Assembly (NCBI GenBank): GCA_964019425.1
Contig: OZ025808.1
Span: forward strand, 372,001-436,000
DNA: 64,000 bases
Direction: 5' to 3'
Source: Flectonema sp. DT1601
Lineage: Eukaryota; Euglenozoa; Diplonemea; Diplonemida; Diplonemidae
The notes beneath the pieces are model-generated. The model ran no database searches and had not been told where the DNA came from. It saw only the letters and a list, made by a program, of their open reading frames with translations. Below are positions 17,561 to 61,699 of the stretch, in pieces (position 1 is the stretch's first letter; each line of letters begins with the position of its first letter). The position numbers were made by a program, and so were the translations under genes.

Positions 17561-19669
17561 TCAGTGTTGGACAGACCAAGCCTTCTGAGACCCATATAGT
17601 GGCATGGCGTCGACTTTTTTTAAAAAATTCCTGGTAAAAGTGGTCAGGCGCTCTCGCAATTTCTGTTCTTTGGCGTTCGGCTCAAACCAACGCCCGATGT
17701 ATTTGAACTCTCCAGCTTCCTGGAGATTCGTAATCGGAACATTGTTAATCTTCAGGTCCGGGTTAGCTGGTTTCCCTTGTACAAAGCTGTGGGCAATGCA
17801 TTTCTGGGGTTTCGCTTTCATACCACGAGACCAGGAAAGAAACTGTTCGAGCGACTTGATTAGCAATTTTGCCCCCGCCTTTGATGACGTGGTAAGTTGT
17901 AAATCATCAGCAAAAGCTGCAACTAATAGTTGGAGGGATTTATTGTTAAACTCGTAGGCTTCCTGTTGATGAACTGCTAAGGAAAAGAGCAGTAGTTGGA
18001 ATACCAAATTAAAAAGGGTTGGGGAGGAAACGCAGCCTTGAAAGACACCAACTTCAAAAGGGATAGTGGGCGTCAGGCCTTCTCCAACTCTGATTTGGAC
18101 GCGCATGGAGGAATAATACCTTTTATAGAAACCGATTATTCTTTCGTGAATTCCGAAATATTTTAAAGCAAAGAAAATTAATTGATGTTTGACTGAGCCG
18201 AAAGCATCTGCCAAATCCACCCAGACAATTGTTAGGTTTTTCCGGAGAGCTTTCACTTCTTTAAAAATCTCTGAGGTGATCGTGGCATGTTCGATACACC
18301 CAGAGACACCTTTCCTAAAGCCTTTTTGAAAATTAAATTTAGAAAGAGTGTGGTTTGCGACGGCTTCCTGAATAACCGTATTAAAAATTTTCCCGTCGCA
18401 GTTGCCCACAGCTATCGGTCTCGTTTTCGAGATGTCTTTCCCATCGGAGTTGGGCTTTGGGAGCATTGTTACAAATGCTAAGCCCCAACTATCCGGATAG
18501 GCCTTGAGTTCGAAAATTCTCTTTAATACCTTGTAAAGTGCTTCCATAAAAGTTGGGACCTTTTTCCATACAACATAAGGTATGCAATTGGGACCAGGGG
18601 CACATTTGTTTTTTTTCTTTGATAAGAGAATACCAAACTGTTCGAAGCTCGGGAACTGGATATCATCCATTGTCTTGTAGTCAGACTTAGGTAAAAAAGA
18701 GGGATGGGTGAAATCAGTTTTTTTTTTTTCATTGTCACAATAATTGTTTTTAAAATGTTCAATTATTTTTTCCTCTGGAATATCAAGGGAGGGGGGTTGA
18801 GGATCTTCTTTTTGGAGTTCTTCTTTTATGGCAGTAAACGGATTTTGACGAAATTTATCTTGTAATTTTTTGAATAAATTTTTCTTTTCTAAATTCCGAT
18901 ACATTCGGAAAATCCTTTTCATTCTCGTTCTTGCCTCTTTCCATTTGACAGCGTTCTCTATAGAAGGCCCAGATTTGCGGAGCTCCTGTCTTAGCTGTTT
19001 CATTTCCAGACGACATTCAAGTTTTTCTTGGTCGAGGATGACCTCTTCCCTTGATTTCTGTTTGCGGGGTAAATTCCGCTTTGTTTCTTCAAAGAAACCG
19101 CTACATATTTGATAAACCGTTTTGAGTAGTTTATCAAGTTGGTCGGCAGGATTTGAAGAATTTTCTGTTTCGACGGTGAAAGTTTGAAGTTTTTCTGCAG
19201 CAGAAACGTCGATGTCCTTCCATTCAGTTCCAAAAGATCGGAATTTGAGACGAGACGGGTGTAACGGGGTAAAAGTGGGTGTTGTAGAGTTATAAGGAAC
19301 GAAAGCTGTTTGTGAAGTTTTAAAATCTACAGATTCTCCTACAAAGGGAGGTTCCAGGTCTGAATTATTCCCTGTGAGGGGAGACAGAGGTGTACCTTTA
19401 CATGTACCGTTAACACAGTGTTTCGCTCTCGTAGCGATACTTTTGAAAAGCTTACCACATTCTGGACAAGGTAAGTGGTAACAATCTTTAACTTGGGAGT
19501 GGGTAGATGGGGGAAAACGTGACTTATAGTCCTTAAATTCCTTACTAAACTTACAGTTACGTCTAAAATGCGCAACTGGACCTTTGAGGTATGTCTCAAA
19601 ACATAAAGGACATTTGGCTACTAAAGTTTTATCCCCATCCAGAGCCGATCTCGAAATAGCCTCTTGCAA
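17561..19669 (-). CDS. R2-type non-LTR retrotransposon protein, N-terminal half (zinc fingers and reverse transcriptase)
   Basis: 702 aa. Two N-terminal C2HC fingers (C20, C23, H34, C39; C68, C71, H84, C90) would bind DNA. The RT domain spans ~330-660 with KPNSDGKDISKTRPIAVGN, VWVDLADAF (motif A), GVFQGCVSSPTLFN (motif B) and AFADDLQL (motif C, Asp pair near 587). These features fit early-branching LINEs with a C-terminal restriction-like endonuclease. The thumb, CCHC and endonuclease are missing: the frame ends within flank repeat R2. The element at 214-3291 carries exactly the missing half of the same type, though the two are not contiguous. Upstream (19670-19950) there is only a G/C-rich leader and T runs. 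Reading on the minus strand, ATG at 19669 is the first in-frame start. Confidence 0.9.
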   Translation of the reverse strand: MQEAISRSALDGDKTLVAKCPLCFETYLKGPVAHFRRNCKFSKEFKDYKSRFPPSTHSQVKDCYHLPCPECGKLFKSIATRAKHCVNGTCKGTPLSPLTGNNSDLEPPFVGESVDFKTSQTAFVPYNSTTPTFTPLHPSRLKFRSFGTEWKDIDVSAAEKLQTFTVETENSSNPADQLDKLLKTVYQICSGFFEETKRNLPRKQKSREEVILDQEKLECRLEMKQLRQELRKSGPSIENAVKWKEARTRMKRIFRMYRNLEKKNLFKKLQDKFRQNPFTAIKEELQKEDPQPPSLDIPEEKIIEHFKNNYCDNEKKKTDFTHPSFLPKSDYKTMDDIQFPSFEQFGILLSKKKNKCAPGPNCIPYVVWKKVPTFMEALYKVLKRIFELKAYPDSWGLAFVTMLPKPNSDGKDISKTRPIAVGNCDGKIFNTVIQEAVANHTLSKFNFQKGFRKGVSGCIEHATITSEIFKEVKALRKNLTIVWVDLADAFGSVKHQLIFFALKYFGIHERIIGFYKRYYSSMRVQIRVGEGLTPTIPFEVGVFQGCVSSPTLFNLVFQLLLFSLAVHQQEAYEFNNKSLQLLVAAFADDLQLTTSSKAGAKLLIKSLEQFLSWSRGMKAKPQKCIAHSFVQGKPANPDLKINNVPITNLQEAGEFKYIGRWFEPNAKEQKLRERLTTFTRNFLKKVDAMPLYGSQKAWSVQH

Positions 19670-19950
19670 AGCCTCGGGGGCTGGGTTGGCTGAGAGATGG
19701 TTGCCAGTATCTTTATGACACCGCCGGCCCGGTGTTTCTTTTTTTTTTTGTTGTGAAGTAGCAATAATAAAAAAAAAAAAAAAAATAGAAAAGAGAATGG
19801 CTCAGAAACAATATCGATGAGTTAAGATCTTTTTTTTTAAACTATTCCTTTTTTTTTAATTTCGGGCAGCTAACCCTAGAGTTTTTTTTGGTAAATACTG
19901 TTTAAAGGAAAACGAGCTACGCTCTAAAACAGAAAAATCGGAGTAACTAC

Positions 19951-30280: not shown

Positions 30281-30544
30281 ATGAGTTAAGTTACCAGGTG
30301 AGATTTGGACTGTTAGCTTTTGGCTAAGGCCCTCCCTGAAAAGCAAGAACAAAAAAACTACTCACACCTGAAGAAAACATACACAAAGAACACACTGTAA
30401 GCTGTGTGTGTATTTTGTGTTTGTCACAACAGGAGAGAAAAAGAAAGAATGTCAAGGTTGGTCACCTTGCCTATCAACGCACAACATTGGTGGTCTCTAC
30501 TAGACCCTGAGTGATCCCACTGGATCTCTCATCGTTCATAGTAC
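30281..30544 (-). repeat. Repeat U copy 4, truncated
   Basis: Same conserved end as copy 3 (GAGTTAAGTTACCAGGTG), but stops at TTCATAGTACCC where LINE coding sequence begins. Confidence 0.85.
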
Positions 30545-31828
30545 CCAGTTGCAGTAGCTAGAAAGATCACCGGCTGCGGCTTCAACACAAGGTCCCTTCC
30601 GTTACTGTGGGAGGCGAACATACTCCCGATGAGACTGCAGATTGAGAAGCAAGCCAGGATTGCCTTATTTAGGTATCGGTCACTGGATTGGGTTCCTTCA
30701 ACGAAGGGAATCGCTAGTGGAACTTGGAGTTCAACTTTACCGGCCGAGGACCGTAATATGGAGATCCAGGGGATTGTCATGCCTGACAGCATCGAGCCAT
30801 GGATAGATGTTCCGAACCTGGAGATATCTTGTGGATATGGACATTCGAAGACCGGTGTTGCTGAAGTGGACAAGGCTAAGTTCGAGGAGTACTGCAGCGA
30901 ACTTAGGCCATGTACCTCGTCCATTTTTGTTGACGGATCCCACGACCCTGTCAACTACACGGCAGGCGCAGCGGCAGTGCAGATCACGCCGTGTGAACGG
31001 ACCATGGCATCGAGACTTGTTGCAACGGAAAGTAGTTATAAAGCTGAACAGGTAACTCTGAAGCTGTCAATAAGTGAATTTGGAAAAGCAACCTCTGTCT
31101 TGGGTCCCAGATCTGGAATCACGAGAGTCTTCAGTGATTCTAAATCCAATCTGGATGAGCTGCGTGGTGGAATTGCGGCTCAGAGGAAGCTGAACTCTCT
31201 CTCGATACTAGAAGGGATAAGGAAATTAGACTCATTCGTTCACCTTCAATTCATCCCAGCTCACGTGGGAATTGAACCGCATGACAAGGCAGATGAACTG
31301 GCGAAAAAGATCTCAAAAGATGTTAAGAGCAAGCCGGTGTCAACGACTATGGACTTCTTCGCACATAAGTCAAGGATAGTGAGGGAAGCTAACAGAAAGC
31401 TGTTTGGTAAGATTATGGAGGGTTCAACAAGGGCGAAACCACCGATCAAACGGGTGATGCTTAGGCAATATCTTGATGCTACCGGAGGCCTGAGAGCGGC
31501 TCGATACCCCAAGGACATGCTGAGAGAATCAGAGATAAGGATAGCCAGGTTCAGAACGGGCTCTCACCCCCTGATCAGGGTAAATGAACTACCGATAAAG
31601 TGCCCCTTCTGCAAAAGAACAGACTCTTCTGCCCGACATCTAATATTTGATTGCGAGGATGGTGACGTGGTCCGCATCAGAGAAGGAACAATGAGATCAA
31701 ACATTCAGGAAGCGAGAATTTCCGAGACCAAACTGAATCTTTCAATAATGTTTGCGACGAGAAATCTTCACGCCCTAGCCGGCTACTTATGGCATTTGGA
31801 ACAACGAACAGGCTTATCAAACTGTTAA
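30545..31828 (+). pseudogene. LINE ORF2 C-terminal part (RNase H and CCHC), older relative of the intact LINE
   Basis: Open from 30545, first ATG at 30629. Homologous to residues ~900-1250 of the LINE at 35196-39011: EKQARIALFRYRSLDWVP, RNase H with FVDGSHD, SSYKAEQ, FSDSKSNLDEL and FIPAHVGIEPHDKADELAKK, and a CPFC...H...C knuckle near the end. It ends later than the intact copy, with ~60 extra residues. A 3' UTR to about 32050 contains GTGGTCTTTGGCCACC, matching a stem-loop in the newer copies. The upstream part is split off at 28047-28557, probably by inversion between U repeats. Confidence 0.85.
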
Positions 31829-33641: not shown

Positions 33642-33770
33642 TAAATAAATAAAAATTTTTTGTACTTCTGTACTTTCTGTACTTCTGTACTTTCTGTACT
33701 TTATTGATTTCCTACCATTACCTGGTGAGAGTCGATTTTGTGCGGGTTTTCTGACAGACATAAAACTATA

Positions 33771-35195
33771 ATGAGCAGTTGTAAGGAGCTGCTTTTGGAT
33801 GTGATGCGGCTAGTACAAGAAGTGGAGAAAGGACTAGCAGGAGAAGAAAAGAGAAGGAGGGTTTTGACTCTCACGATGAGAGTGCTGGAGCAACTGACGG
33901 AGGACTCCGGTGAGAAACAAGGAGAGTCGTCAAAGAGAAAGACGACAGAGCAAGAGAGGAAGGGGAAGGAGTCCGGGGGACAACGACAGGAAGCGGCGAG
34001 CACGGTGAGGGATGGAAATGATGGAGGCCCGACACCAACTACCAACAACAAGAAACCCACTCTGCCAGAGTGGTACATTCACGCAGCGTGGGCTAAAGCA
34101 ACACCTACGCTTAAATTCTCAGAAGCAATCGATGCCTCCAAAAACAACGCGGACGGACTCGTGCTCATCAGCTCAAAGGCTGATTATGAAGCACTGAAGC
34201 AAACACGAACGAAGGGCGACTGGGCTGCCATCTCAAAGTCCAAACTGTTTAAAACAACAGTCCCAGTCGCACTTCCAGTCGTAAAGAAGTGCGGAACCTG
34301 CGTCATTCGTAGGGTATTTGTCACCCCGATTTGTGGCAAAGATTTCACTGCCGCAAGAGAAGACACCATCGAGCCACCACAGCCAGACCCAGTTCTATTC
34401 GTACAAGACTGGAGTAAATCAGCAGAGAGCACTCTCACCACTAAGGTGAGAGAATTAATTAAAAAGTGGGAGCTGAAGACATCGCCCTTCGGATTTAAAA
34501 AATGCGATATGCACACATCTATGGCGATCCGTGTGCCAAACTTCAGAATTTCTGAAATTCTGGAATACAACAACAGCGACACCTCCAGTGAGAAGAGAGA
34601 TCTATTCATCAGAAACCCATCTTGGTCCAATGGCCAAGACTCTTGGAACACAGTTCAGTTCGTTAAGGACTTGGGCTTCAAAGCGGTGCTGGGCAAACTT
34701 TCAGTTCTTTCAGCAATCAAAGGTAGCTTCTACATCACGAAGTTCCGAGAGTGCTTTGGGCTGAAAGTTCAACCCGGGTTTACTCAAAAAGTGAGAGAAT
34801 CACTCGGGGATTCTCTGAAACCCGCTCTGCCGACTGGTCAGCGTTTTATAATTAAATCACTGGCTATTAAGAAGTTCACGACGCAACAGATCAGCGATCA
34901 CCTGTTGCATGCATACAAGTGGAGTCACACAATTGTGGCTAGTTTTCATAAGGGAGGCAACAAAACGTTAATTGCAATCTCTGAATCGGTTCCATCATCA
35001 AGCTTCGTCGACATGGGCAAAGATGCGTACCTTGTAATCAACATGGAAACCAAAAAAGAAAAGCCGGTCAAATTGGGGCCGACCTTCAACCCGGGCAAGG
35101 GTCCAGTTATATCTGGTGATCTGAAGCGACACTGTGCTGAAGAACCAACCGATACTACTGAAACGACTGATGTGGAAATGGATAATTCAAACTGA
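33771..35195 (+). CDS. LINE ORF1 protein
   Basis: 474 aa from the ATG at 33771, ending in TGA at 35193-35195. Residues ~5-50 form a short coiled coil (LLLDVMRLVQEVEKGLAG), 55-105 are a charged low-complexity stretch, and 110-440 look globular. No CCHC knuckle or RRM is obvious; a KKCGTC...ICG cluster lies near residue 175. In LINEs this product usually binds the element's RNA. Remarkably, the frame continues open past the TGA directly into ORF2, with no other stop. A stop-codon read-through or reinitiation step would then make ORF2 protein. Confidence 0.75.
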   Translation: MSSCKELLLDVMRLVQEVEKGLAGEEKRRRVLTLTMRVLEQLTEDSGEKQGESSKRKTTEQERKGKESGGQRQEAASTVRDGNDGGPTPTTNNKKPTLPEWYIHAAWAKATPTLKFSEAIDASKNNADGLVLISSKADYEALKQTRTKGDWAAISKSKLFKTTVPVALPVVKKCGTCVIRRVFVTPICGKDFTAAREDTIEPPQPDPVLFVQDWSKSAESTLTTKVRELIKKWELKTSPFGFKKCDMHTSMAIRVPNFRISEILEYNNSDTSSEKRDLFIRNPSWSNGQDSWNTVQFVKDLGFKAVLGKLSVLSAIKGSFYITKFRECFGLKVQPGFTQKVRESLGDSLKPALPTGQRFIIKSLAIKKFTTQQISDHLLHAYKWSHTIVASFHKGGNKTLIAISESVPSSSFVDMGKDAYLVINMETKKEKPVKLGPTFNPGKGPVISGDLKRHCAEEPTDTTETTDVEMDNSN

Positions 35196-38100
35196 CTTGA
35201 CAAACGAACACCGTCAACTTCAAATTCTAAAAATGACTCACATCATAGTAAAGTTCTGGTGAAGCCGACTACTGTAACAGCACCGACTGTCTCTCAAACT
35301 GAAAAAGAACTGAACCGAAGTTTATTACTGCTGGCAGGCGACGTCGAACGCAACCCTGGACCTGAAAATTCGTTACTCTCAGTGTTGAGCTGGAACTGTA
35401 GATCGATAAGTCAGAAGGGGTCTTATATTCAAAGACTCCTATCTCACTACTCGCCGGATGTACTGTGCTTACAGGAAACCTGGTCGAAGGAACACATTTC
35501 GCACCCCGGCTATTATACATATAGGAAGGACAGAAATACAAAAGGTGGTGGCATTATAATAATGGCAAAGAGATGCTTCTCACAAGGAATCAGTGATGAA
35601 GAATTATTTTCGAGAACAAGCGGTATCGAAGCTATGATGCTGAATGTTGGTGGTGTCAATGTTATTAACGTTTACGCTCCCCCTGGGTGTATCATTAGAG
35701 AAGATGATCTTCCGATCACAACGAAGTCTATTATTGCGGGCGACTTTAACGCACACAACCTCGTCTGGTCTACCAGGACAACCAAATCTGGTAAAGAATT
35801 ATTTAATTGGGCGGATCGCAATGACGTTCTCGTAGCAAACAGACCTGGTCAAATTACTCGGCCCAAACACGACATTCCTGGTGGTGGTACCTCACCTGAC
35901 GTCATATTCTTCAAAGGATCAATTGTATTAGAAGAATTTTCAATCATAAATGAAGACAGTAAACATAACTCGGATCATCGACCTCTACTCGCTATCTTCG
36001 ACACAATGGCTCACCTCTCTCAAGCAACAGTTGGAGCAAGGAAACGAACTGTCTGGGATTTCAAATCTACAAACTGGAGTGCTTTCAGACAGCAACTTGA
36101 TAGAAGAATTGATAGGGCTAAGTTCTCGGATGATGCCACTGGTAATGTTGGATTATTAAATAACATAATACATGAAGTAGCTGCGAGGAACGTGCGGAGG
36201 AGAATCTTATTTAAGGGCAAGCGCCGACGTAAGTGGAAGACCTCTTCACCTGAATCTATAAAATCAAAAGGTAGTCACCTGAAAGACCAACTGAAGAAGG
36301 GGAACAACTTTAACTTCGCCTTCAAGAAGATTAAAGAACTCCAACAGGACGCTGGCAAGGACATCAGCGTATCAAATATATCTGAGAACGATTTACCTGC
36401 AGCATTTCTGGACCTCTTTGTGGCCGATGGGGATGCTGCTAAACTCGAAGCCCCTTCATTGAAGAAAGAAGACTTGGAATTGGACATCTGTTGTGACTTC
36501 ACAGATACCGAGATATCAGCAGCAATAAAGAACCTGAAGCCTCGCAAAGCAGCAGGCCCTGACGGTATTCACAACGAAATGCTTAAGAACTTATCTCAGA
36601 AGGCAGTTGACTGTTTATTAAAGGTGATCAATTCTTCGTGGAGATCCTCCAATGTTCCGTATCTTTGGAAACAGGGGTTAATCAAACCGATGTTCAAGTC
36701 GGGCAAACCGCGGAACGATATTAAAAGCTACAGACCAATCACACTCACTTCGGTTGTCGGCAAACTGGCTGAGAGGTTGGTGTATGACAGGCTCATGCAT
36801 TGGCTTACCGAAAACTCAGCACTCAGTCCAATTCAAGCTGGCTTCAGACGGGGCAGAAATACCTGCGAGCAAATCACAATTCTGGTGGACGCCATGGTAA
36901 ACAACCACACGAAGGGGAGGAGGTCAGTCTTCTTGTCATTCGATTTCACAGCAGCTTTCGATAGGATAAACCATCAAATCCTACTTTCAAAACTACAAAG
37001 AATGGGCATCCCAACCTTCATCGTTCGATGGATAACGGACTTTCTAACCAATAGGAAGGTCAGAGTTGATGCAAATGGACATTTCAGTAAGTTTCGTACG
37101 CTGTCAAAAGGAGTGCCTCAAGGATCAATCTTAGGCCCACTACTCTATTTAATATATGTTGACGATCTGTGTAAGATTCTCTCACAAGAGAAGGAAACGA
37201 CTTTGACCGCACTGTATGCAGACGACACCGCTTGTGCAGTATTTGGCTCGACCATGGACGAAGCAATCTCAAACGCTCAACGAATACTCGACATCGTTGA
37301 CAAGTGGTGCCGTGATAATGACATGGCACTTTCAGTCTCCAAGACTTGCGCTCTGAAAATGGATATTCAATCAAAAGAAGTAACCCTGACTGATACTAGC
37401 GACCGCGAACTCTTATTCTCAAAATCACTGGAAGTACGTTCGTTAGATATTGACTATTTTGATCTAGACAGCATGATCAACACGACGACGACAAGGCCCA
37501 CTTTACTGAGTGGTGAAACGATCCTCGAAGTAGAGGGGAAACCCATCAGGACTCAACAAGAATTAGAAGATTTACTGATGTTGAACATCCACGACGAGAT
37601 GAATGTCAAAGCGAAAATTAAAATTGCCTTCCTACTGCCGATCACGGACTCAGTGAAATATCTGGGTGTTTACATTGATAACAGGCTCAGGTTTGATAAA
37701 CAGTTAGAGAAAATACACGACGAACTGAAGAAAGGGATCTCCCTTCTGCAGTGCCTCCAGCCATATGAATTGGACTACAAGACCCTAAAGATGGTTAAAA
37801 ACTTGTACGTGACAGCGAGGATTTCCTATGCACTGGACAGCTTTGGTTGGTTGCTCAACCAGCATAAAACGGACGCTATCGACTTCGAGATGAGAAAAAT
37901 AGCGAGACTCGTAACAGGATGCAGCAGATGTACTCCGAGGGAGTTGCTCCTTTGGGAAGCCGACATCTTACCGTTTAAAAGACAAATCGAAAAGCAGACT
38001 AAAATTGCCTATTTCAGGTACAAAGCCATGACCTGGGTGCCGGACACCAACTCACTCGCATCGCCTCAAAGCTTCTGGGGTGGCCTCATTCCCCGTTCTG

Positions 38101-39011
38101 AAGGTCAACTAGAAAGCGTGGGGATCGTTCAACCTGACTCTATCAAACCTTGGATTGCTTCGGACAATGTTCAAATCAGCAACAGCTGCGGTTTTACAAA
38201 ATCCCCTGATCCCGCAGTGGACAGGGAGAAATTCCTTACCTACAACGCGACACTTCCTCCGGTGGACATGGTGATCAACTGTGACGGTTCATACTCTTCG
38301 AATGCGTCAGGCGCGGCTCTCATTGCTAAGTCACGAGACGGAAAGAAACGTGCTCATGCGACCAGATTAGTGCGTGCGGATTGCAGCTACAGAACTGAGC
38401 AACATGCCTTGAAAAATGCGGCAAACTACTTAAACTGGAAGGTACAGAAAGACGGGTTAACTAAGTCAGTCAGAATCTATACCGACTCAAAATCATTGTT
38501 GGACGAGTTGAAGGGTGGCAGGTGTAAACAGAGAAACACCAGATCCCTCGGCATCCTCGAGAACCTGCGGAACTGCGGTATGAAAGTACATCTTCTATTC
38601 ATCCCTTCTCACATGGGGATAGAAGCACACGACGAAGTTGATGAACTTGCTAAGAAATCGGCTCACAACAGATACCTCCCTCAAATCCCAATCCGAGGAT
38701 CCTTCTTCTATCACAAATCCCGAGTGAGGAGGGGGATCACGAAGGACATTTGGAACAGAATTGGTTACACCTGCTATAAAAACACCGTCAAAGGTGCCGC
38801 GATAAAATATCCTCCCGACATGAAAAGGAGCGATGAAATCAGAATTGCGAATTTCAGAACGGGGTGTCATCCACTGATGCAAAACTGGCGGAAAGCCATC
38901 AAATGTCCATTCTGCCATAGCGCTCCATCCAACCAACTCCACCTACTCGTAGGCTGTCCATCACAGAAACTCGATGCAGCCAGATATGAAATCCTTGGCT
39001 TTTCTACATAG
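35196..39011 (+). CDS. LINE ORF2 polyprotein: 2A - APE endonuclease - RT - RNase H - CCHC
   Basis: Open from the codon after the ORF1 TGA to TAG at 39011; no ATG before the endonuclease, so initiation is by read-through, reinitiation or a non-AUG codon (GTG at 35259, used for numbering). LLLLAGDVERNPGP at residues 22-35 is a canonical 2A motif. APE: N46, E73, D162, N164, H240. RT: GPDGI near 433, Y653-ADD. RNase H: D1009, TDSKSLLDEL, PSHMGIEAHDEVDELAKK. CCHC knuckle near 1216. About 110 residues between the RT palm and DSVKYLG are extra, including a PDZ-like GETILEVEGKPIRTQQELE at ~748. The homologous copy 2 reads TTG where this has TAG, so this copy lacks about 33 C-terminal residues. Confidence 0.9.
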   Translation, partial: LDKRTPSTSNSKNDSHHSKVLVKPTTVTAPTVSQTEKELNRSLLLLAGDVERNPGPENSLLSVLSWNCRSISQKGSYIQRLLSHYSPDVLCLQETWSKEHISHPGYYTYRKDRNTKGGGIIIMAKRCFSQGISDEELFSRTSGIEAMMLNVGGVNVINVYAPPGCIIREDDLPITTKSIIAGDFNAHNLVWSTRTTKSGKELFNWADRNDVLVANRPGQITRPKHDIPGGGTSPDVIFFKGSIVLEEFSIINEDSKHNSDHRPLLAIFDTMAHLSQATVGARKRTVWDFKSTNWSAFRQQLDRRIDRAKFSDDATGNVGLLNNIIHEVAARNVRRRILFKGKRRRKWKTSSPESIKSKGSHLKDQLKKGNNFNFAFKKIKELQQDAGKDISVSNISENDLPAAFLDLFVADGDAAKLEAPSLKKEDLELDICCDFTDTEISAAIKNLKPRKAAGPDGIHNEMLKNLSQKAVDCLLKVINSSWRSSNVPYLWKQGLIKPMFKSGKPRNDIKSYRPITLTSVVGKLAERLVYDRLMHWLTENSALSPIQAGFRRGRNTCEQITILVDAMVNNHTKGRRSVFLSFDFTAAFDRINHQILLSKLQRMGIPTFIVRWITDFLTNRKVRVDANGHFSKFRTLSKGVPQGSILGPLLYLIYVDDLCKILSQEKETTLTALYADDTACAVFGSTMDEAISNAQRILDIVDKWCRDNDMALSVSKTCALKMDIQSKEVTLTDTSDRELLFSKSLEVRSLDIDYFDLDSMINTTTTRPTLLSGETILEVEGKPIRTQQELEDLLMLNIHDEMNVKAKIKIAFLLPITDSVKYLGVYIDNRLRFDKQLEKIHDELKKGISLLQCLQPYELDYKTLKMVKNLYVTARISYALDSFGWLLNQHKTDAIDFEMRKIARLVTGCSRCTPRELLLWEADILPFKRQIEKQTKIAYFRYKAMTWVPDTNSLASPQSFWGGLIPRSEGQLESVGIVQPDSIKPWIASDNVQISNSCGFTKSPDPAVDREKFLTYNATLPPVDMVINCDGSYSSNASGAALIAKSRDGKKRAHATRLVRADCSYRTEQHALKNAANYLNWKVQKDGLTKSVRIYTDSKSLLDELKGGRCKQRNTRSLGILENLRNCGMKVHLLFIPSHMGIEAHDEVDELAKKSAHNRYLPQIPIRGSFFYHKSRVRRGITKDIWNRIGYTCYKNTVKGAAIKYPPDMKRSDEIRIANFRTGCHPLMQNWRKAIKCPFCHSAPSNQLHLLVGCPSQKLDAARYEILGFST

Positions 39012-39674
39012 ACAGGCAAATGGGACCGATCAAGTGATCTAATCCTCATCAACGGCATTCCTGCCAGTCTTGGCTCAATCTTTGCCACCAGCTGGCTTCC
39101 TTCAGTAGCGATGTTGATCAGGTGGATGGAACAAGCATCCAACCTGAGACTTTGGAATTGTGTAGGTGACACGTAGTCGCCATTTAAGTGTTTTATCAAT
39201 ATTTAGTATTTTCATCATTATCAATCATCTCCAGGTTGGGTAACTGCACATCACCTTCGGTGTTGTCTCAGTGTCCCTTCCAATACTCCTTTCTCCTTCT
39301 TCTCCTATTCTCCTTATAAATTTCTCTTGAGGGCAGGCCTTCGGGCTGTTCAAGTGGTCTTTGACCACCGCTCTAGTTATATGCTCGACTCTTTGTTTTC
39401 CTTATCGATGGTAGGAATGGCAACCGAATTAGCTTCATGTGTCCAATTTCAAGGACGCGTGACCATTTATTTTTTTCCGTTGCCGCTCTTCTTACGTCCT
39501 CAGGCGGAGCCTACCTATGTTTCCCGTGTTTTCCAATTTGTCAGACTTAAACCAAAAGAAAGTATAAAAGAAAGACAAAACATAGAAGTGAAAAGAACAA
39601 AAACAAAGAGTTTGGTAGCACAGACGAGTGTAACCAAAAAAAAAAAAAAAAAATTGTGACGAAAAAATTGTGAC

Positions 39675-40526
39675 AACTGTGACGGTTCATACTCTTCGAA
39701 TGCGTCAGGCGCGGCTCTCATTGCTAAGTCACGAGACGGAAAGAAACGTGCTCATGCGACCAGATTAGTGCGTGCGGATTGCAGCTACAGAACTGAGCAA
39801 CATGCCTTGAAAAATGCGGCAAACTACTTAAACTGGAAGGTACAGAAAGACGGGTTAACTAAGTCAGTCAGAATCTATACCGACTCAAAATCATTGTTGG
39901 ACGAGTTGAAGGGTGGCAGGTGTAAACAGAGAAACACCAGATCCCTCGGCATCCTCGAGAACCTACGGAACTGCGGTATGAAAGTACATCTTCAATTCAT
40001 CCCTTCTCACATGGGGATAGAAGCACACGACGAAGTTGATGAACTTGCTAAGAAGTCGGCTCACAACAGATACCTCCCTCAAATCCCAATCCGAGGATCC
40101 TTCTTCTATCACAAATCCCGAGTGAGGAGGGGGATCACGAAGGACATTTGGAACAGAATTGGTTACACCTGCTATAAAAACACCGTCAAAGGTGCCGCGA
40201 TAAAATATCCTCCCGACATGAAAAGGAGCGATGAAATCAGAATTGCGAATTTTAGAACGGGGTGTCATCCACTGATGCAAAACTGGCGGAAAGCCATCAA
40301 ATGTCCATTCTGCCATAGCGCTCCATCCAACCAACTCCACCTACTCGTAGGCTGTCCATCACAGAAACTCGATGCAGCCAGATATGAAATCCTTGGCTTT
40401 TCTACATTGACAGGCAAATGGGACCGATCAAGTGATCTAATCCTCATCAACGGCATTCCTGCCGGTCTTGGCTCAATCTTTGCCACCAGCTGGCTTCCTT
40501 CAGTAGCGATGTTGATCACAACCTGA
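39675..40526 (+). pseudogene. RNase H-CCHC portion of LINE ORF2 (copy 2)
   Basis: Open frame for the last ~280 codons: RNase H residues after the first Asp (CDGSYSSNASGAAL) through the CCHC knuckle. It continues 33 codons beyond the stop of copy 1 and ends ...SWLPSVAMLITT, which probably shows the family's true C terminus more closely. Lacks APE and RT, so cannot act alone. Confidence 0.85.
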
Positions 40527-42067: not shown

Positions 42068-43526
42068 CTGAGAATTGCACTAGAAGTATGTGTCACACAA
42101 TCTTAGTAGGTGTTTGTTGGTTGCTATTGAGCGTCGTAACTTTTTGTTCTATTCAGACAGTCATTCTTGTTGTCTGTCTTATCACTATTATTGGTTTGCA
42201 ATGCAGTTACACTGGCATTCACCCCCACAACACTCTCACTTGGTTTTATTGAATATTTATTGGGTTATGGTCCAAAAATACACCAAAAAAAGCCAACAAA
42301 AAGTGGCCCAAAATACACCGAAGTGGCACCAAACCGTGTGGGACCTGGGGTCCCAACCACATAGCTGGGTATGAGGATGGGTCACAGTCACCAGGTATTC
42401 CTCATACAACCATCAGGGTTTAGAGCGTAACTTAAAATACTGGAGGGGCATCACAAGCGTCAGACAGAAGACAAGAGAAATCCAACATATCCAACATCAT
42501 GAATCTTTAGAAGAGTGCTCCAGCTTGGCATGTGTGCAGGGCTGGGTCACCTAAATTAGCAATTCCTCTAACTTTTTTCATATGTCGTCACTCACTTCGG
42601 ACACACTCAACCAGAGAGCTTCTCGATGATTTCAGACACGTAACTTTTGGATATCATGCTCCTGTATAATTGTTCCCACATAAGCTTTTGTCTTGAGAGA
42701 TTGAGAATAAAGTTTGTAGTAATAGCCTAAAGAGAGGAGAAAGTTTTTATGATGAGGAACTACTGATCCCACAAACCCGCAAAGTGGCAAAAACCAGGTC
42801 GATATAATTTCGTTGTGACCGCAGCGGGGGTGAATTGATACTCTGAATTACATCTTGGGGGATGTGGGCTTGGCAAAAGGTGCCCAGTTCTTGTGCAGAC
42901 GCATAGTCAGCTGTACACTTGGAAATTTTCTTAATCTCTTTAAGCTACTTTGCTTCAGCAGTGGATCTTGTGTATACTATTTTTGTACACCAAGAAAACT
43001 GCCTTGCTGTGCAGCCTTAATACGGTTCTGCCTCTGTGGGCAGTGCAAAGACAGTGTCGTTGCCAGACATGAAAACACGTTTGACACACCCTTGTCAGAA
43101 ATACTAACAACACCCGTACGAAACACATCCAAGTTGTTGGCATCAACGCCAACAGAGACATACAATCGAAAAGCTCACTTTGCCACCTTTGGGTACCCTC
43201 GAGGAGGATGAAGAAGATTTGTCTCAGATTCCGGCTCAGAACCGGAATCTGAGACGTGCTCACTGTAAGTTGTTATAAATCCGAATAAAATTGAACTCGC
43301 GGGAGCGTTTCTGTACACAAATTGATTTACGAGTTCCCAAAGCCCCAGGTTCGGTATAATTTGGGCCACTTCGGGCCACTGTCCATATTTATTTATTACT
43401 TTTCTCGTAATCAGGCATTCTAGCAGAGTCTATGGTTGAGTTGTATGAGGGAATACTGAATCATGAATGATATTTATTGTATTAATTACTCTTCTCCTAT
43501 TACAGCCTATTTTTGTTTACTTAATA
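42068..43526. other. Intergenic region before the HAD gene
   Basis: Short ORFs on both strands at 42855-43369 match nothing I know and their frames are broken. A 14 bp perfect hairpin lies at 43221-43255. A pyrimidine tract ending in CAG at 43503-43505 precedes the next gene's ATG by 21 nt and looks like a splice acceptor. Confidence 0.5.
43221..43255. repeat. Perfect 14 bp hairpin
   Basis: GTCTCAGATTCCGG and CCGGAATCTGAGAC around a 7-nt loop (CTCAGAA). Strong enough to act as an RNA structure or foldback; no T run follows. Confidence 0.7.
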
Positions 43527-44414
43527 ATGCCTGTTACTACCATCAGAGTTCTTCCAAGTGGAGAAATTATTTTGAAGCAGGAGGCTGGTGTTTCTTCGGC
43601 TGCTTCACCACCGGTGGTGAGCACAGAGAAATCTACGACAAGCTCAGCAGTTCCGTATGCACCGAGAACTGCTGCTGATCCATCCACTCCGTTGGTCGAT
43701 CTCGGTATTAAAATGTGTGTGTTCGATATGGCTGGTACTACAGTTGATGAGGGAGGTGTCGTGTATGACACCTTAAAGAAGATTATGGTTGATGCTGGTC
43801 TTAAAGTTGATGACACGGAGTTTAACAAATGGCATGGAGCAAACAAACGTGAAGTACTTGCACACTTTGTAAAAACAAACAATGCAGGTGGGGAAGACGA
43901 TATTGATAATTTATATAAAGAATTTGAAGAAGAACTCCAGTCAGTTTACTTCAGTGTGAACTCACCAGTGAAACCAATTCCGGGAATTTTAAAATACTTT
44001 ACTAGCCTTCGCCGTGCTGGTATTAAAGTGGTTTTGGACACAGGATTCCCTCGCAAAATCGCAGGTCATATCATCGAACTTCTTGGTTTCTCTTCATACA
44101 TCGATGGGTCGTGTGTTGCTATGGAGGTAGGTCATGGTCGTCCATATCCGTTCATGATTTACAAACTTATGAACGAGCACGCTATTGGTTCCATTGCTGA
44201 AGTCGCCAAGATGGGAGATACTGTCCGTGACATTGAAGAAGGTCTCGCTGCTGGCACCCCATTTGTGTACGGCTGCTTATCCGGAGCCGATAACCGTGAA
44301 AAACTTGAACAAGCTGGTGCTTTCAGTGTCGTGAATACAGTTTGCGACATTCCAATCACTGGGAAAGCCAAGCGTTCGTTGTCCGGATCTGAACCAGTTA
44401 AGCGTTCAAAGTAA
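43527..44414 (+). CDS. Phosphonatase-like HAD-superfamily hydrolase
   Basis: 295 aa from ATG 43527; an in-frame ATG at 43467 lies before a likely splice acceptor (TTCTCCTATTACAG) and is less likely. Residues 1-60 are Ser/Thr/Pro-rich, with no known domain. The HAD core starts at 63: CVFDMAGTTVDEGG (nucleophile D67), DTGFPRKIAG at 171 (motif II and the phosphonatase-type TGF.R), GHGRPYPFMIYKLM and KMGDTVRDIEEGLAAG at 228 (acidic motif, D231 and D235). This order matches the phosphonoacetaldehyde hydrolase-like family, which cleaves C-P or phosphate ester bonds in the cytosol. The cap domain has GANKREVL; whether its Lys is the Schiff-base residue of true PhnX is uncertain, so the substrate is open. 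The C terminus is basic (AKRSLSGSEPVKRSK). Ends in TAA. Confidence 0.85.
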   Translation: MPVTTIRVLPSGEIILKQEAGVSSAASPPVVSTEKSTTSSAVPYAPRTAADPSTPLVDLGIKMCVFDMAGTTVDEGGVVYDTLKKIMVDAGLKVDDTEFNKWHGANKREVLAHFVKTNNAGGEDDIDNLYKEFEEELQSVYFSVNSPVKPIPGILKYFTSLRRAGIKVVLDTGFPRKIAGHIIELLGFSSYIDGSCVAMEVGHGRPYPFMIYKLMNEHAIGSIAEVAKMGDTVRDIEEGLAAGTPFVYGCLSGADNREKLEQAGAFSVVNTVCDIPITGKAKRSLSGSEPVKRSK

Positions 44415-46409: not shown

Positions 46410-46622
46410 AGTTACTGAAAAAAAAAAAAAAAAGCGAAAGGAAATGTAGCTCCACCAAATACTTGGAGGCACCCTACCTGCGCCGACAAGACGAAATCTT
46501 TTTTACGTTTTACATTATTTTTTCAACAGGAAACTCGACATTTTCCAACCTAATCTGCAGTGGTGGACTATATCAGTATTGGTTTTAGGTATCACATTTT
46601 TTCATCAGGGAGTGGCACTACA
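46304..46622. other. Short intergenic gap between RPL13A and TM9SF
   Basis: Holds A runs (46380-46432), a CTCCA...TTGGAG hairpin at 46451-46469, and acceptor-like TTTTTTCAACAG (46529) and TTTTTTCATCAG (46608), the latter 14 nt before the TM9SF ATG. Confidence 0.5.
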
Positions 46623-48872
46623 ATGAGAATAATCGTATTGCTACTCTTAACGTGGGGATGCAGTGCCAGCTGGTACTTCCCAGGAGCGAAACCAAAAGAG
46701 TATGAGAAGGGTCAGAATATTCCGATGTACGTAAACTCAATGTCCTCAGTGAACACTCACTTGCCATTCGACTACTACTCTCTGCCTTTCTGCAAACCTA
46801 TTAAGCACACTAAAGGTGAGCGTGAGAACTTGGGAGAAATCTTGATGGGTGACAGAATAAAGGCATCACCATACGAAGACATTGTTGTCGAGGATAGTTT
46901 TAAGTGTAAAGTAGTTTGCACTAAGCAACTCACAAGGTCATCAATTGGCCGATTTGAAATGTTAGTCACCGAAGAGTACGTTATGTCACTCTTACTTGAT
47001 GGCTTACCTGTAGCAGTGAGAAACCTTGACCAGAATAGTTTCTCTATTGGTATTCCTTTGGGAAGCAGAGACTCAAAGCAAATTACTATTAATAATCATT
47101 TGCACTTTACTATTAGATACAGTAATGTGAAGGCTTTTGAGGGAAGTTCTTCAAAGAGAATTGTTGCATTTACTGTGAAGCCATACTCAGTAAAGCATCA
47201 AGTTGATCCAATGAGTAATACTGTTTCTACATGTGATGATGGATTTGATCCAGTGAACTTGTTATTACAACCGGCAAACAGTTCTGATCCTATCACCTTC
47301 AGTTACGGTGTCACTTGGGAAGAGTCTGAGGAGAAATGGGGATCAAGATGGGATACCTACTTAAACATTGCGGATACAGAAATCCATTGGTTTTCAATTA
47401 TCAACAGTGTTATGATTGCTTTCTTCTTGTCTGGTATTCTCGCAGCTATCATGTTGCGTACACTACTCAGAGATATTGCTCGTTACAATGCAATTGAAGA
47501 CACTGATGACTTCCACGATGAGACTGGTTGGAAACTCGTCCACGCGAACGTCTTCCGCCCTCCTGCAAATAAGGGTCTCCTCGCTTGCTATGTTGGGACT
47601 GGTGTACAACTTCTTGGAATGTGCCTAACAGTTTTGATTGTTGCTTGTCTTGGATTCTTGTCTCCGGCAAACGGTGGAGCTCTATTCACGGCAATCCTTC
47701 TGTTTTTTGTATTCTTAGGGTATGTGTTATCTATTTTAATAAATAATAAGAACCACGTGAGTCTCTCAATTATCAAATAAACCTAACCACAGTGTTTATG
47801 GAGGATACACTTCTGCTCGTCTTATGAAGATGTGGGGTGAAACACCTTGGTACAATGCTTTCCAGACAGCAACTGTTGTACCCGGAACCGTCTTTGTTGC
47901 ATTTTTCATAATTAATCTGTTTGTGTGGAGAGAGGAAAGCACTGGTGCCGTGCCTTTTAGTATGTTTTATTCTCTCTCTAAATAAAGTTAAATTCTGACG
48001 CTGTTTTAGCAGTTTGAAAAGGAGAAATTAACTTATTAAAAACAAACAGACGCAATGATAGCTGTGATAGCTATTTGGTTTTGTATTTCCCTTCCACAAG
48101 TGTTTTTGGGTGCTGTGTTTGGATATCGCAAAGCAGCACTTGAGCCACCTTCCAGGGTTAATCAGATTGCTCGTTCCATTCCTGAGCAGGTGTGTAGTGT
48201 TTCTAATTCTCTTTAAATCAAAACTAAGGCTCTGAATTACCTTAACACATAACAAACAGCGTTGGTACCTGCAGCCATGGTTCACTATCATGTGTGGAGG
48301 AGTTCTTCCATTTGGAGCAGTTTTTATTGAGCTGTTCTTCATCTTAACTTCAATATGGCTACACAGATATTATTACGTATTTGGGTTCCTCCTTTTAGTT
48401 TTTATTATCCTGTGTATAACTTGTGCTGAAATCACTATTGTGATGTGTTACTTTCAGCTGTGCGCAGAGGACTACCACTGGTGGTGGAGATCGTTCTTTA
48501 CTTCTGGTAGTTCGGGTATATATGTCTTCCTGTACTCTATCTTCTACTTCTTTACTTCTTCACTGAAGGTATGTATTACATTCCCCCCCGCTGGATTGGT
48601 GACAGTGTTAGCCATGTCATCTGACAAAGAAGATAACAAATAATACAAACAGATGACCCGATTCGCAGCTGTCCTAATCTTCTTTGGTTACATGTTGGTA
48701 ATTTCGTACATCTTCTTTGTTATCACAGGAACTATTGGTTTCGTTGCTTGCTTTTGGTATGCATTTTTCTTTTCTACTTCAAAAGTATAAAATCGAAAAA
48801 AAATTCAAAAAAAAAAAAAAAAAAAAAAATAGGTTCGTACGCAAGATATACTCTTCAATCAAGGTTGAGTAG
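46623..48872 (+). CDS. TM9SF: Transmembrane 9 superfamily protein (nonaspanin), six exons
   Basis: Exons 46623-47719, 47793-47959, 48050-48189, 48260-48568, 48653-48756 and 48833-48872 give 618 aa, normal for the family. A signal peptide ([20 protein letters not shown]) is followed by a lumenal domain with [24 protein letters not shown] and a KPYSVKH segment. [18 protein letters not shown] near residue 255 starts the first of nine membrane helices. Later landmarks are [30 protein letters not shown] and [17 protein letters not shown]. The C terminus [10 protein letters not shown] matches the conserved Golgi-retention tail. These proteins sit in Golgi and endosome membranes and help sort cargo. 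Introns are 70-90 bp with GTATGY or GTGTGT donors. The ATG at 46623 is chosen because it begins the signal peptide; the upstream in-frame ATG lies before a likely acceptor. Confidence 0.95.
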
Positions 48873-50390: not shown

Positions 50391-50695
50391 CTTTTTTTTT
50401 TTTTCTTTTCTTTCACACCAATATCGTTCTTTAGTACGGTAGTGATAATAATATTTTTTAATTAAAAAAAAAAAAAAAAAAATAGAGAGGAGCAAAAAAC
50501 AACGAAAAAAATAATATAAACAGAAGACATAACCCATTCCCCGTGACAACCAGGTATTTAAGTTAATGTTTGGTGTGAGCTTGCTAAGTAATAGTATTCT
50601 TTTTTTTTTTCCTACTGCAACAAAAAATGATGTGATACGATGATAAGAAGCAATCAAATGTTTTATGTCTTTTCATCCACTTTGCAGGTAAAAAC

Positions 50696-51823
50696 ATGTC
50701 TCTACCCGCACTTCTGATGATGGGGGAAGAGCCTGGTAGCTTTCGTCATAGTACTCTTGTGAACAGATGTCCAGGTATAATTAAGGGAATTATTTCTGAT
50801 AATGAAATAGACTCAGACACGGTTAAACTTTTAGAAAAATTAGCACAAGACCTGGCGGAGGGGGGTCTGATTCCTGAAGTTTCAGAAAAGATGAAGAACT
50901 TATACGACTACTCTTCTATGAAAAATTACATTGGAAAATCATGGCTAGACGGTCCATGGCTTCATGCAGAATGCTATCTGTATCACGTTGTTAGTGATTT
51001 GTTGAATTTTATTGATACGAAAAAAGATCATTTTATGGCTAACAAAATTAAATCGGAAATATCAACTGACCATCCGTCAGTTGTGAAGTTAGTATCCGTC
51101 ACAACAATAGAAGAAGCTCTTAAAGCATCGTTGTGGGGGAACAGGGCAGATCTCTCTCTGTTCAAACCTGACGACACAAGTAGACTTCAAGCAGGAGCTG
51201 AGAGTTCTATTATCGTTAACAACTCTGACGTGGTTGTCAAGAAATTAATGATTTCAAAAAACGTTCACATTATCGCAGATAATTACGGATTTGAGATCCT
51301 TTGTGACTTGGTACTCAGTGACTTGTTGATCAGTTCTGATGACTCACGTGTTGTCACTATTCATTGTAAAGACATGCCTTACTTTGTGTCTGATACTTCC
51401 GTTTGTGATATAAAAAGAATGATATCAAATTACTTAAAAACTGATTTGACTATTAATTTAAGAAATCGATTACTTGCAGCTCTTGAGAGCGGGAGGTTGG
51501 TACTTCGCGATGATCCGTTTTGGGCATCGCCGTCTGACTTCAGATCACTTCCTGAAAATATTACAAAAATGTTATCGGAATCTGATTTAACATTTCTAAA
51601 GGGAGATTTGAATTATCGCAAGTTGGTATCTGACAGGCATTGGCTTCGATCAACTCTGTTTGAAGAAGTGGTCAGCTACTTCCCATCACCGCTGTGTGCC
51701 CTTCGTACTAACAAGTCTGAGGTTTGTGTTGGTATTCCTGAGGATGTCCAAAAGGCATTAACTGCATCAGACCCAAAATGGGATGTCAACGGTGAGTTTG
51801 GCGTAATTCAAGCGAGACTATAA
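50696..51823 (+). CDS. ARMT1: DUF89/ARMT1-type metal-dependent phosphatase
   Basis: 375 aa, single exon, ends in TAA. N-terminal NRCPGIIKGII (23-33) is the family's entry motif, followed by a helical domain. Catalytic core: IADNYGFEILCDLVLSDLL (D195, N196), HCKDMPYFVSD (K225), DDPFWASPSDF near 273, TFLKGDLNYRKL (D304, N306, R308) and ALRTNKSEVCVG (R337, K340). These match subfamily III damage-control phosphatases, cytosolic enzymes that hydrolyse sugar phosphates such as fructose-1-phosphate; the protein-methyltransferase role claimed for human ARMT1 is debated. It is slightly shorter than the human protein. The ATG at 50696 lies 8 nt after a likely splice acceptor (CACTTTGCAG at 50687), so a 5' UTR intron or trans-splice site is probable. 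Confidence 0.9.
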   Translation: MSLPALLMMGEEPGSFRHSTLVNRCPGIIKGIISDNEIDSDTVKLLEKLAQDLAEGGLIPEVSEKMKNLYDYSSMKNYIGKSWLDGPWLHAECYLYHVVSDLLNFIDTKKDHFMANKIKSEISTDHPSVVKLVSVTTIEEALKASLWGNRADLSLFKPDDTSRLQAGAESSIIVNNSDVVVKKLMISKNVHIIADNYGFEILCDLVLSDLLISSDDSRVVTIHCKDMPYFVSDTSVCDIKRMISNYLKTDLTINLRNRLLAALESGRLVLRDDPFWASPSDFRSLPENITKMLSESDLTFLKGDLNYRKLVSDRHWLRSTLFEEVVSYFPSPLCALRTNKSEVCVGIPEDVQKALTASDPKWDVNGEFGVIQARL

Positions 51824-59413: not shown

Positions 59414-59520
59414 GCACCGACGAAGTCGGAGAAGAAACTATTCAGATTAAGAGCCGTTATTTATTATGTCATGTTATCTATTTCCCTGTGCGCCAGTAAA
59501 ACTAGCTGCGATCAACAAAA
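59414..59520 (+). repeat. Split direct repeat, part A1
   Basis: From GCACCGACGAAGTCGGAGAA to GCTGCGATCAACAAAA; matches A2 at 63498-63604. The start codon of the gag-like ORF follows at once. A short inverted repeat CCGACGAAGTCGG opens it. Confidence 0.9.
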
Positions 59521-60687
59521 ATGTCTGGCGTCGACCCAAACACCGTCGTAGCCCTCACTCCAGGGGCCGGAAGAGGACAAGCAACACCAACGAACGAGAT
59601 GGCGTTCGTTGCCCAAGCTGCAATGGCAGCGCACTCCGCGGAGACGCGGGCGATGGCCACGGAGGTGGTAGCGGCCGGAGACCGGAGGGCTCTGGTAGCA
59701 GAGGGGAACTCTGCAATAGCTGCCACGCAGTCCATGGCGGCTCAAGCGATCACGCACGCGCAAGCTGGTCGCGAGGTGGACTCGGCTTGGGCCCAAGCCG
59801 GCGCAGCGGTAACGCAAGCACAAGCAGGGAGGGAGGTGGACGCGGTGCGGGCCCAAGCCGGCTTGGCGGTAACGCAAGCCCAAGCCGGGAGGGATGTGGA
59901 CGCGGCACGGAACCAGGCCGGAATCCTGGTGAACGAAGCGGAGGCGAAGGCCAAGCTTGCCAAGCTGGAGGCACGACACCACGCGGAAGTGTCTGCGCTG
60001 CAGGCCCAGCTCGAGCTGGAAAAACGGACGGCAAAGTTATCACCTACGAAGGCTACTTCGGTGCCCAACCCCGTCTCATCTTCCTACGCAAACTCAGGAG
60101 AGCTGGCTAACTTACGGCAGAGGGTACGAGAAGAGACTGAGAAGGCAGAGTTGGAGGCGCAGTTACGTCGTCTGGTTGCGGGAAACGAAGGCCCCCCGGC
60201 TACCGGTGGCGGGGGAGGCGACGACGCACAGCCGGAGATGGGTCCGTTGATGGGAGGATTGTCCTCCATCGACGTAGACGCTTGGTGGGGCGGAGGGGCG
60301 GACGTGCTCCCGCTGGTGCATGTGCACCAGCGGGAGCACTACAGAGAACTGCTGGAAGCGAAGGCAGGAACGAACCCCCGACCACAGGCACACGAAGCGC
60401 AGGCGCGCCTAAGAGAGCTCGGCATGCTGATGTCGAGATTACCGGCTGTCGAAAGCCTGGAGGACGCGGAACGGCTGCTGGCCGACTTAGCGAAGGCGAA
60501 CGTGGCTCGTCTGGAAGTGCTGAGAGAGGGGGTGACGGGAGGCGGCTGGACGAGCGCGCAGGAGATGGAGGATGCCCACTTTGTGGCGCCCGCCGTCCCG
60601 CCTTTTCTGCGGGCTATGTGGGGGAAGAAAGGGAAAGCAGAGAAGACACAGCCACAGAGGAACCCCGCAACGAAGAGTCGCCACTGA
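59521..60687 (+). CDS. Gag-like ORF1 of the YR retrotransposon
   Basis: 388 aa, Ala/Gln/Glu-rich and largely alpha-helical. Residues 82-141 are three 20-aa repeats beginning AGREVD and ending VTQAQ. A coiled coil follows (145-215: AKLAKLEARHHAEVSALQAQ), then a Gly-rich linker and a second helical part. The position and composition suggest the structural protein of the element. No CCHC knuckle seen. ATG directly follows repeat A1; the next ORF begins 5 nt after this one ends. Confidence 0.75.
   Translation: MSGVDPNTVVALTPGAGRGQATPTNEMAFVAQAAMAAHSAETRAMATEVVAAGDRRALVAEGNSAIAATQSMAAQAITHAQAGREVDSAWAQAGAAVTQAQAGREVDAVRAQAGLAVTQAQAGRDVDAARNQAGILVNEAEAKAKLAKLEARHHAEVSALQAQLELEKRTAKLSPTKATSVPNPVSSSYANSGELANLRQRVREETEKAELEAQLRRLVAGNEGPPATGGGGGDDAQPEMGPLMGGLSSIDVDAWWGGGADVLPLVHVHQREHYRELLEAKAGTNPRPQAHEAQARLRELGMLMSRLPAVESLEDAERLLADLAKANVARLEVLREGVTGGGWTSAQEMEDAHFVAPAVPPFLRAMWGKKGKAEKTQPQRNPATKSRH
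60304..60339. repeat. Perfect 17 bp-arm hairpin inside the gag-like ORF
   Basis: GTGCTCCCGCTGGTGCA (60304-60320) and TGCACCAGCGGGAGCAC (60323-60339) separated by TG. Both arms are coding, giving VLPLVHVHQREH. Confidence 0.95.
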
Positions 60688-60692
60688 CCTCC

Positions 60693-61646: not shown

Positions 61647-61699
61647 TGCCGTTATGCCCTGCGTTTCCCACACGACCAAGGGCTGTGCTGGATCCGCAG

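Follow-up and report, generated by a model that had tools for sequence, protein, structure and literature searches.

An in-frame stop in a leaky context and a 2A-like peptide between ORF1 and ORF2 of diplonemid LINEs suggest readthrough followed by ribosome skipping

The LINE copy of the window and its ORF1-ORF2 junction

The window analysed here is a stretch of 64,000 nucleotides from the diplonemid Flectonema sp. DT1601 (contig OZ025808.1, positions 372,001 to 436,000, forward strand), and our subject is a long interspersed nuclear element (LINE) that lies on its plus strand at approximately 33657..39653, a copy of what we call family A. Matches of several other family copies begin at 33656-33666, and at the other end they run to 39645-39653, just past an A-run. 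The first open reading frame (ORF1, of type I) starts at its first ATG at 33771 and has 474 codons before its TGA stop (33771..35195 with the stop). Beyond this TGA (35193-35195) no further stop interrupts the frame from 35196 to 39008. It passes through a linker of 47 codons (35196..35336), which ends in LLLLA and has no ATG in this copy, and through the 2A-like core GDVERNPGP (35337-35363) into an apurinic/apyrimidinic endonuclease (APE) domain (Exo_endo_phos, frame residues 64-246, 35385..35933; Pfam PF03372, E = 1.7e-12, and PF14529, E = 1.9e-13) and a reverse transcriptase (RT) domain (residues 507-729, 36714..37382; PF00078, E = 2.4e-36). Endonuclease and RT thus share one ORF, ORF2, as in APE-type retrotransposons without long terminal repeats (non-LTR). 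The 2A-like tract, counted as 25 codons to NPG and then P, occupies 35286..35363; its length follows the approximately 25 amino acids given for an active 2A tract (PMC11512398). A reading made earlier from the letters of the window, the sequence-only reading, had described this open frame from the TGA through GDVERNPGP into the endonuclease, and we confirmed it in the window copy.

Copies of family A are dispersed in the genome; their 5' ends vary, and they share a 3' end that follows the A-run. Twenty-two other loci match the window LINE by 96-99% across 754 or more of 801 bases, and the family looks to be of recent origin. The window copy itself is probably not intact, because its ORF2 frame is closed by a TAG (39009..39011) after 1271 codons, 55 short of the 1326 found in most listed copies of the family. 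Adjoining the A-run of the first copy is another piece of this family (39660-40526), truncated on its 5' side so that it starts in the RNase H region, and its frame stays open where the first copy has TAG. The window ORF1 gave no Pfam match at E<=1. It is 48-51% identical to the ORF1 of family B across their shared part, and a protein search with it matched five proteins, all from ENA. Its predicted structure was too poor to use (mean predicted local distance difference test score 35.6).

Stop, linker and 2A at junctions across the genome

The genome (89.5 Mb, 92 contigs) was scanned with the back-translated motif GDVERNPGP, which occurs exactly at 130 places. The reversed control had 0 places, and chance occurrence of the motif was rejected on this comparison. 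Several codon variants of the motif led to different LINE families among the 112 of 130 places that were examined. A second pattern, in which the x codon of D-V/I-E-x-NPGP starts with G or T, found 0 places; this pattern misses some x, for instance that of family J. Additional families were found by domain searches in which only 150 of 287, 317 and 759 candidates were scored, so the families named here are a minimum. The motif-derived set kept 112 loci, with the duplicates L001 and L007 left out. One domain-search set contributed 14 of its 20 loci (L128, L129, L134, L137, L138 and L139 had no junction) and another 15 of 20 (L154 went to family O; L155, L157, L158 and L159 were host genes, decayed or off the junction).

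The sequence-only reading had proposed to align other genomic copies, and this comparison bore out both the stop and the open link. We read 141 distinct junctions, which belong to 18 (sub)families. A stop with C after it is kept in 140 (138 by the strict pattern, plus L042 and L045, which have TGA and C but were missed by the pattern), and the link is fully open in frame in 136. The five others are L025 and L034 (extra stop), L035 and L043 (frameshift) and L047, a decayed copy in which the sense codon TGG stands instead of the stop. The loci are distributed over A (27), B1 (17), B2 (14), C (12), D (6), E (E1 and E2 together, 20), F (16), G (3), H (4), I (3), J (3), K (4), L (4), M1 (3), M2 (3), N1 (1) and N2 (1); the in-frame stop-C junction is therefore common to family A and at least 17 other (sub)families of this genome. 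All 27 loci of family A that span the stop keep TGA followed by C, with CTT in 26 and CTC in one and a single 3-base indel nearby; in the window copy this UGA-CUU context lies at 35193..35198. Family-A linkers have an extra stop at two of the 27 loci and a frameshift at one.

The identity of the stop varied across the subfamilies (UGA, UAG, UAA) while the C stayed. Twelve subfamilies have UGA-C, followed in full by CUU (A, E1, E2), CUA (B1, B2, J), CCG (C), CAU (D, G, H), CGG (F) or CUG (I). The other six have UAG or UAA and then CAA: UAG is followed by CAACGA (K), CAAUCA (M1, M2) or CAACUA (N1, N2), and UAA by CAACCA (L). Position +4 is C and position -2 is A in all 18. According to a review of viral recoding, UGAC is leaky, UAG-CARYYA is the type I and UGA-CGG or UGA-CUA the type II readthrough signal, and adenosines preceding the stop stimulate readthrough in yeast (PMC3542737). 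The core readthrough element of fungi and mammals is given as UGA-CU (PMC4207609), and UGA CUA G is described as a high-readthrough motif (PMC12233894). The exact type II context is present in four subfamilies (B1, B2, F, J) and exact CARYYA at five of the six UAG/UAA junctions (L, M1, M2, N1, N2), so that known stimulatory contexts with an in-frame extension are found in four and five of the 18, respectively. The UGA-CUU of the window family fits the UGA-CU core; the other subfamilies match no more than UGA-C or, in the case of K, CAA. By comparison, CARYYA makes up 4 of 1270 in-frame hexamers of the family-A ORF2 and 3 of 5076 in the ORF2s of B, C, E and F. In a small control, four complete ORF2s terminate in TAA-A, TAG-G, TAA-C and TAG-T, none of them in UGA.

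An NPGP 2A-like peptide is present in 15 of the 18 subfamilies. It has the canonical D-V-E-x form in A, B1, B2, C, D, E1, E2, F and J, and the variants GDIHPNPGP in I, SGIEQNPGP in K, N1 and N2, SGIHPNPGP in M1 and SGVHPNPGP in M2. The leucine-rich tract before NPGP is conserved, so that the core of the 2A class (A-F, J) comes with an upstream tract, and in 18 pairs of family representatives the 2A codons showed synonymous differences only. The motif needs a suitable upstream tract, and some motif-bearing sequences are inactive (PMC4981915; PMC11512398). These comparisons indicate that the putatively leaky in-frame stop is the constant part of the junction and 2A its usual companion, because the stop is kept at 140 of 141 junctions and 2A is absent or degenerate in three of the 18 subfamilies.

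Changes in the linker fall at synonymous sites in most comparisons, and we therefore take it to be translated in most families. The counts of synonymous and nonsynonymous codon changes were 8 and 0 for D-E, 7 and 1 for C-F, 9 and 2 for C-D (C-F and C-D over the last 16 codons before GDVE), 9 and 2 for B1 against its variant B1b, and 10 and 1 for M1-M2 (20 codons ending in NPGP). Linker lengths differ among families by whole codons, and in D and E the stretch between stop and NPG comprises exactly 25 codons, as many as are reported for an active 2A tract (PMC11512398).

Two families have another layout. In family O, at six of six distinct loci (L154 and L161-L165, L160 being the same place as L154; 11 genome matches), ORF2 is in another frame, its AUG overlaps the ORF1 UGA (AUGA), and there is no 2A. 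It has the type II ORF1 also present in C, E and F, and from the residues just past 2A onward the ORF2s of O and C are 54% identical. In family P (two of two loci, L169 and L170), ORF2 is likewise in another frame and without 2A, with its first AUG 5 nucleotides before the ORF1 UGA and G at +4. An in-frame ORF2 AUG overlapping or adjoining the ORF1 stop was not found in family A; the SART1-like stop-start layout is that of O and P instead. The contrast of AUG-started families without 2A and in-frame families with 2A is suggestive, since just two AUG-started families were seen.

ORF1 and ORF2 do not always travel together. The ORF1 parts of 15 representatives sort into six groups, between which no similarity was detectable, and their ORF2 starts are all related. 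The ORF1s of A, B and J are alike (38-51%), and the ORF2 start of J is 63-65% like that of E/F versus 42-46% like that of A/B. Between C and E/F, identity is 33-58% in ORF1 and 53-56% in the first approximately 70 residues past the stop, and only about 24% in the RT region. This mixing of types in J and C indicates that ORF1 and ORF2 recombined at or near the junction more than once. Among proteins of other species in EukProt, ORF2 relatives are 49% (P0003) and 43% (P0004) identical.

Elsewhere in the window, 30542-31828 is a 3' fragment of another LINE of the group, with a C-terminal half close to family E. The minus strand carries a different RT ORF at 17561-19801 (PF00078, E = 2.5e-26), in which cysteine-histidine motifs precede the RT and no endonuclease was matched, and a long ORF at 217-3297 with a zf-RVT zinc-binding match, partly like the opposite-strand ORF 3159-4310. 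Overlapping ORFs at 59506-63391, one a tyrosine recombinase (PF00589) and one RT-RNase H-like by reading, without a Pfam RT match, look like a DIRS-type retroelement. Probable host genes encode a HAD-type hydrolase (43467-44414), an EMP70 protein (46554-47780) and an ARMT1-like protein (50636-51823), and all end in TAA; the HAD-type protein has its best hits in EukProt transcriptomes.

Possible routes to the ORF2 protein

These findings make it quite probable, in our judgement, that programmed readthrough yields a little ORF1-ORF2 product, from which 2A skipping releases the ORF2 protein (ORF2p). The element would be an APE-type LINE with two ORFs, the second of which lacks its own start codon in most copies. 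The majority of ribosomes would terminate at the ORF1 UGA and yield the ORF1 protein (ORF1p), and a minority would decode the weak UGA-C as sense and continue through the linker. At the junction between NPG and P, the nascent 2A would make the ribosome skip one peptide bond, so that ORF1p with a short tail is released, and the same ribosome would then make ORF2p starting with proline. The stop would set the ORF2:ORF1 ratio, and 2A would free ORF2p; readthrough, skipping and dosage are what we infer from the conserved layout. The idea of UGA readthrough plus 2A, as put forward for the window copy, is supported and extends to the LINEs of this genome, in that contexts match viral signals and most linkers are coding-like, with the individual steps deduced from sequence.

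Several observations weigh against this scheme. The Tca2 element, an LTR element with an in-frame UGA, gave no readthrough from its junction in yeast (PMC2194720). Since the families are related, the junction counts are not independent events, and formal probabilities overstate the case. K reads CAACGA rather than CARYYA. The 2A is absent in G, and H has NPEP and L has HPGP in its place. The linker comparisons B1-B2 (3 synonymous, 7 nonsynonymous) and B1b-B2 (5 and 5) show no such preference for synonymous change, and the subtypes of family A, with 1-2 synonymous versus 7-8 nonsynonymous changes, have no synonymous excess; the long family-A linker is loose upstream of 2A, and this family's own linker is without the signal of translation. 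A general RNA stimulator 3' of the stop was not found at the 8-9 junctions analysed (80-nucleotide windows at 8, 400 synonymous-codon shuffles each for 9), being clear only in F and absent in A. For a 2A-adjacent hairpin, in a segment picked after viewing the folds, the share of shuffles equally or more stable was 0 in F, 0.055-0.077 in E1, E2, C and B1, 0.14 in B1b and B2, 0.385 in D and 0.973 in A. With regard to the type II stem-loop, which starts about 8 nucleotides past the stop, a strong hairpin was seen only in F, where it lies farther downstream; hairpins were weak in B, C and E, and there was none in D or A. Finally, an AUG and a 2A-like peptide occur together in M2, which has an in-frame AUG four codons past its UAG, and in the P0004 protein, which starts with MDGQ ahead of the 2A-like EGNVEVNPGP and may represent a relative with an AUG-started ORF2 plus 2A; neither fits the contrast described above as a strict rule. 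Four of the 27 family-A loci (L027-L029, L033) also have an in-frame ATG in the linker. The earlier statement that no in-frame ATG precedes the endonuclease accordingly applies to the window copy and to the majority of its relatives, but not to these four loci or M2. The sequence-only reading had also named what would speak against it: copies with an ATG-started ORF2 in another frame, a sense codon in place of UGA, or a 2A that is not conserved. None of these was seen in family A. In the wider set, the first occurs in O and P, the second in the decayed copy L047 and the third in G, H and L.

We considered the possibility that ORF2 is reached by termination-reinitiation, non-AUG initiation or an internal promoter, in which case the in-frame layout would be incidental and 2A would just trim the N-terminus. 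Reinitiation is the route proposed for SART1 and L1 (PMC5972666), an AUG is found where ORF1 ends in families O and P, in-frame ATGs occur in some A copies and in M2, and the Tca2 junction contains a promoter (PMC2194720). Yet most junctions lack an in-frame AUG near the stop, the linker AUGs of eight representatives sit in other frames, and reinitiation needs neither a single frame nor stop-C nor CARYYA; we regard this explanation as unlikely. If, on the other hand, readthrough occurred and 2A were inactive, the working product would be the ORF1-ORF2 fusion. Retention of the leaky stop in the three subfamilies without an intact NPGP would agree with this, as would the inactivity of some motif-bearing sequences (PMC11512398). 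The occurrence of NPGP with its conserved leucine-rich stretch in 15 of 18, and the purely synonymous differences of the 2A codons in 18 pairs, argue the other way and make an uncut fusion less likely still.

A single open frame on both sides of the stop would also be expected if the stop were a sense codon in this host, through a reassigned code or selenocysteine, or were spliced out. ORF2 frames of 1271-1578 codons, however, hold 20-30 UGG and zero UGA, three different stop codons occur at the junctions, and TAA closes the three probable host ORFs of the window. A search of L116-L119 gave no Rfam match at gathering score, and the stop persists in copies made by reverse transcription. We consider such a decoding or removal of the stop highly improbable.

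Returning to readthrough followed by skipping, a broader proposal stands, in our view, in even balance: that this LINE group uses the two in series as its standard route to ORF2p, that the arrangement moved between UGA-C and UAG/UAA-CARYYA, and that the junction is a plug-in boundary where ORF1 and ORF2 have changed partners more than once (J with an A/B-type ORF1 and an E/F-type ORF2; C with an E/F-type ORF1, linker and 2A and a different ORF2). The junction could serve in this way because 2A would free ORF2p from any preceding ORF1.

Relation to known systems and meaning

Stop readthrough and 2A skipping are best known from viruses. In LINEs, 2A was reportedly described by Heras in 2006 in L1Tc/Ingi of trypanosomes and by Odon in 2013 in animal APE-type non-LTR elements, and in both cases it is said to have gone with one rather than two ORFs. 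The LINEs of this genome share with those elements a 2A-like peptide before APE-RT with the same D-V/I-E-x-NPGP core. They differ in having a separate, stop-ended ORF1 in frame ahead of 2A, and 2A would therefore act after a readthrough step. That 2A occurs in LINEs is documented (PMC4981915; PMC11512398).

The stop contexts are shared with viral readthrough (UAG-CARYYA of tobamoviruses, UGA-CUA/CGG of alphaviruses and tobraviruses), where such signals express the polymerase at a low level (PMC3542737). The present junctions differ in belonging to LINEs, in mostly having 2A downstream and in that no general 3' stem-loop was found. Providence virus is reported to use readthrough and skipping together; it is an RNA virus and not a retrotransposon. 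This member of the Carmotetraviridae has a ribosome-skipping motif and has been compared with a virus that uses UAGCARYYA readthrough (PMC6823297). Retroelements with a stop between gag and pol (the UGA of Tca2, the gammaretroviral UAG) likewise place an in-frame stop between structural protein and polymerase. To our knowledge, no 2A is known in them. Reinitiation in SART1 and L1 is also a translational route to a LINE ORF2, and families O and P resemble its stop-start kind, but it depends on an AUG at the stop or beyond it, and most in-frame families here have none. Among the titles and abstracts listed from the Creative Commons-licensed PMC literature we found neither readthrough between LINE ORF1 and ORF2 nor its coupling to 2A, although Odon 2013 or Luke 2014 may contain an earlier description. 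Known, then, are 2A in LINEs, both viral readthrough signals and LINE reinitiation; readthrough and 2A combined in series in LINEs would be new.

How LINEs keep ORF2p scarce and apart from ORF1p is an open question, to which reinitiation, stop-start coupling and a single ORF are the known answers. The 18 related junctions found here include both kinds of leaky stop, some accompanied by 2A and some not, and the two families with an AUG-started ORF2 can serve as natural controls, so that reporters could address the question directly. If the proposed scheme is true, LINEs would join the users of viral-type readthrough signals, and 2A would have a clear job in two-ORF elements, that of undoing the fusion made by readthrough.

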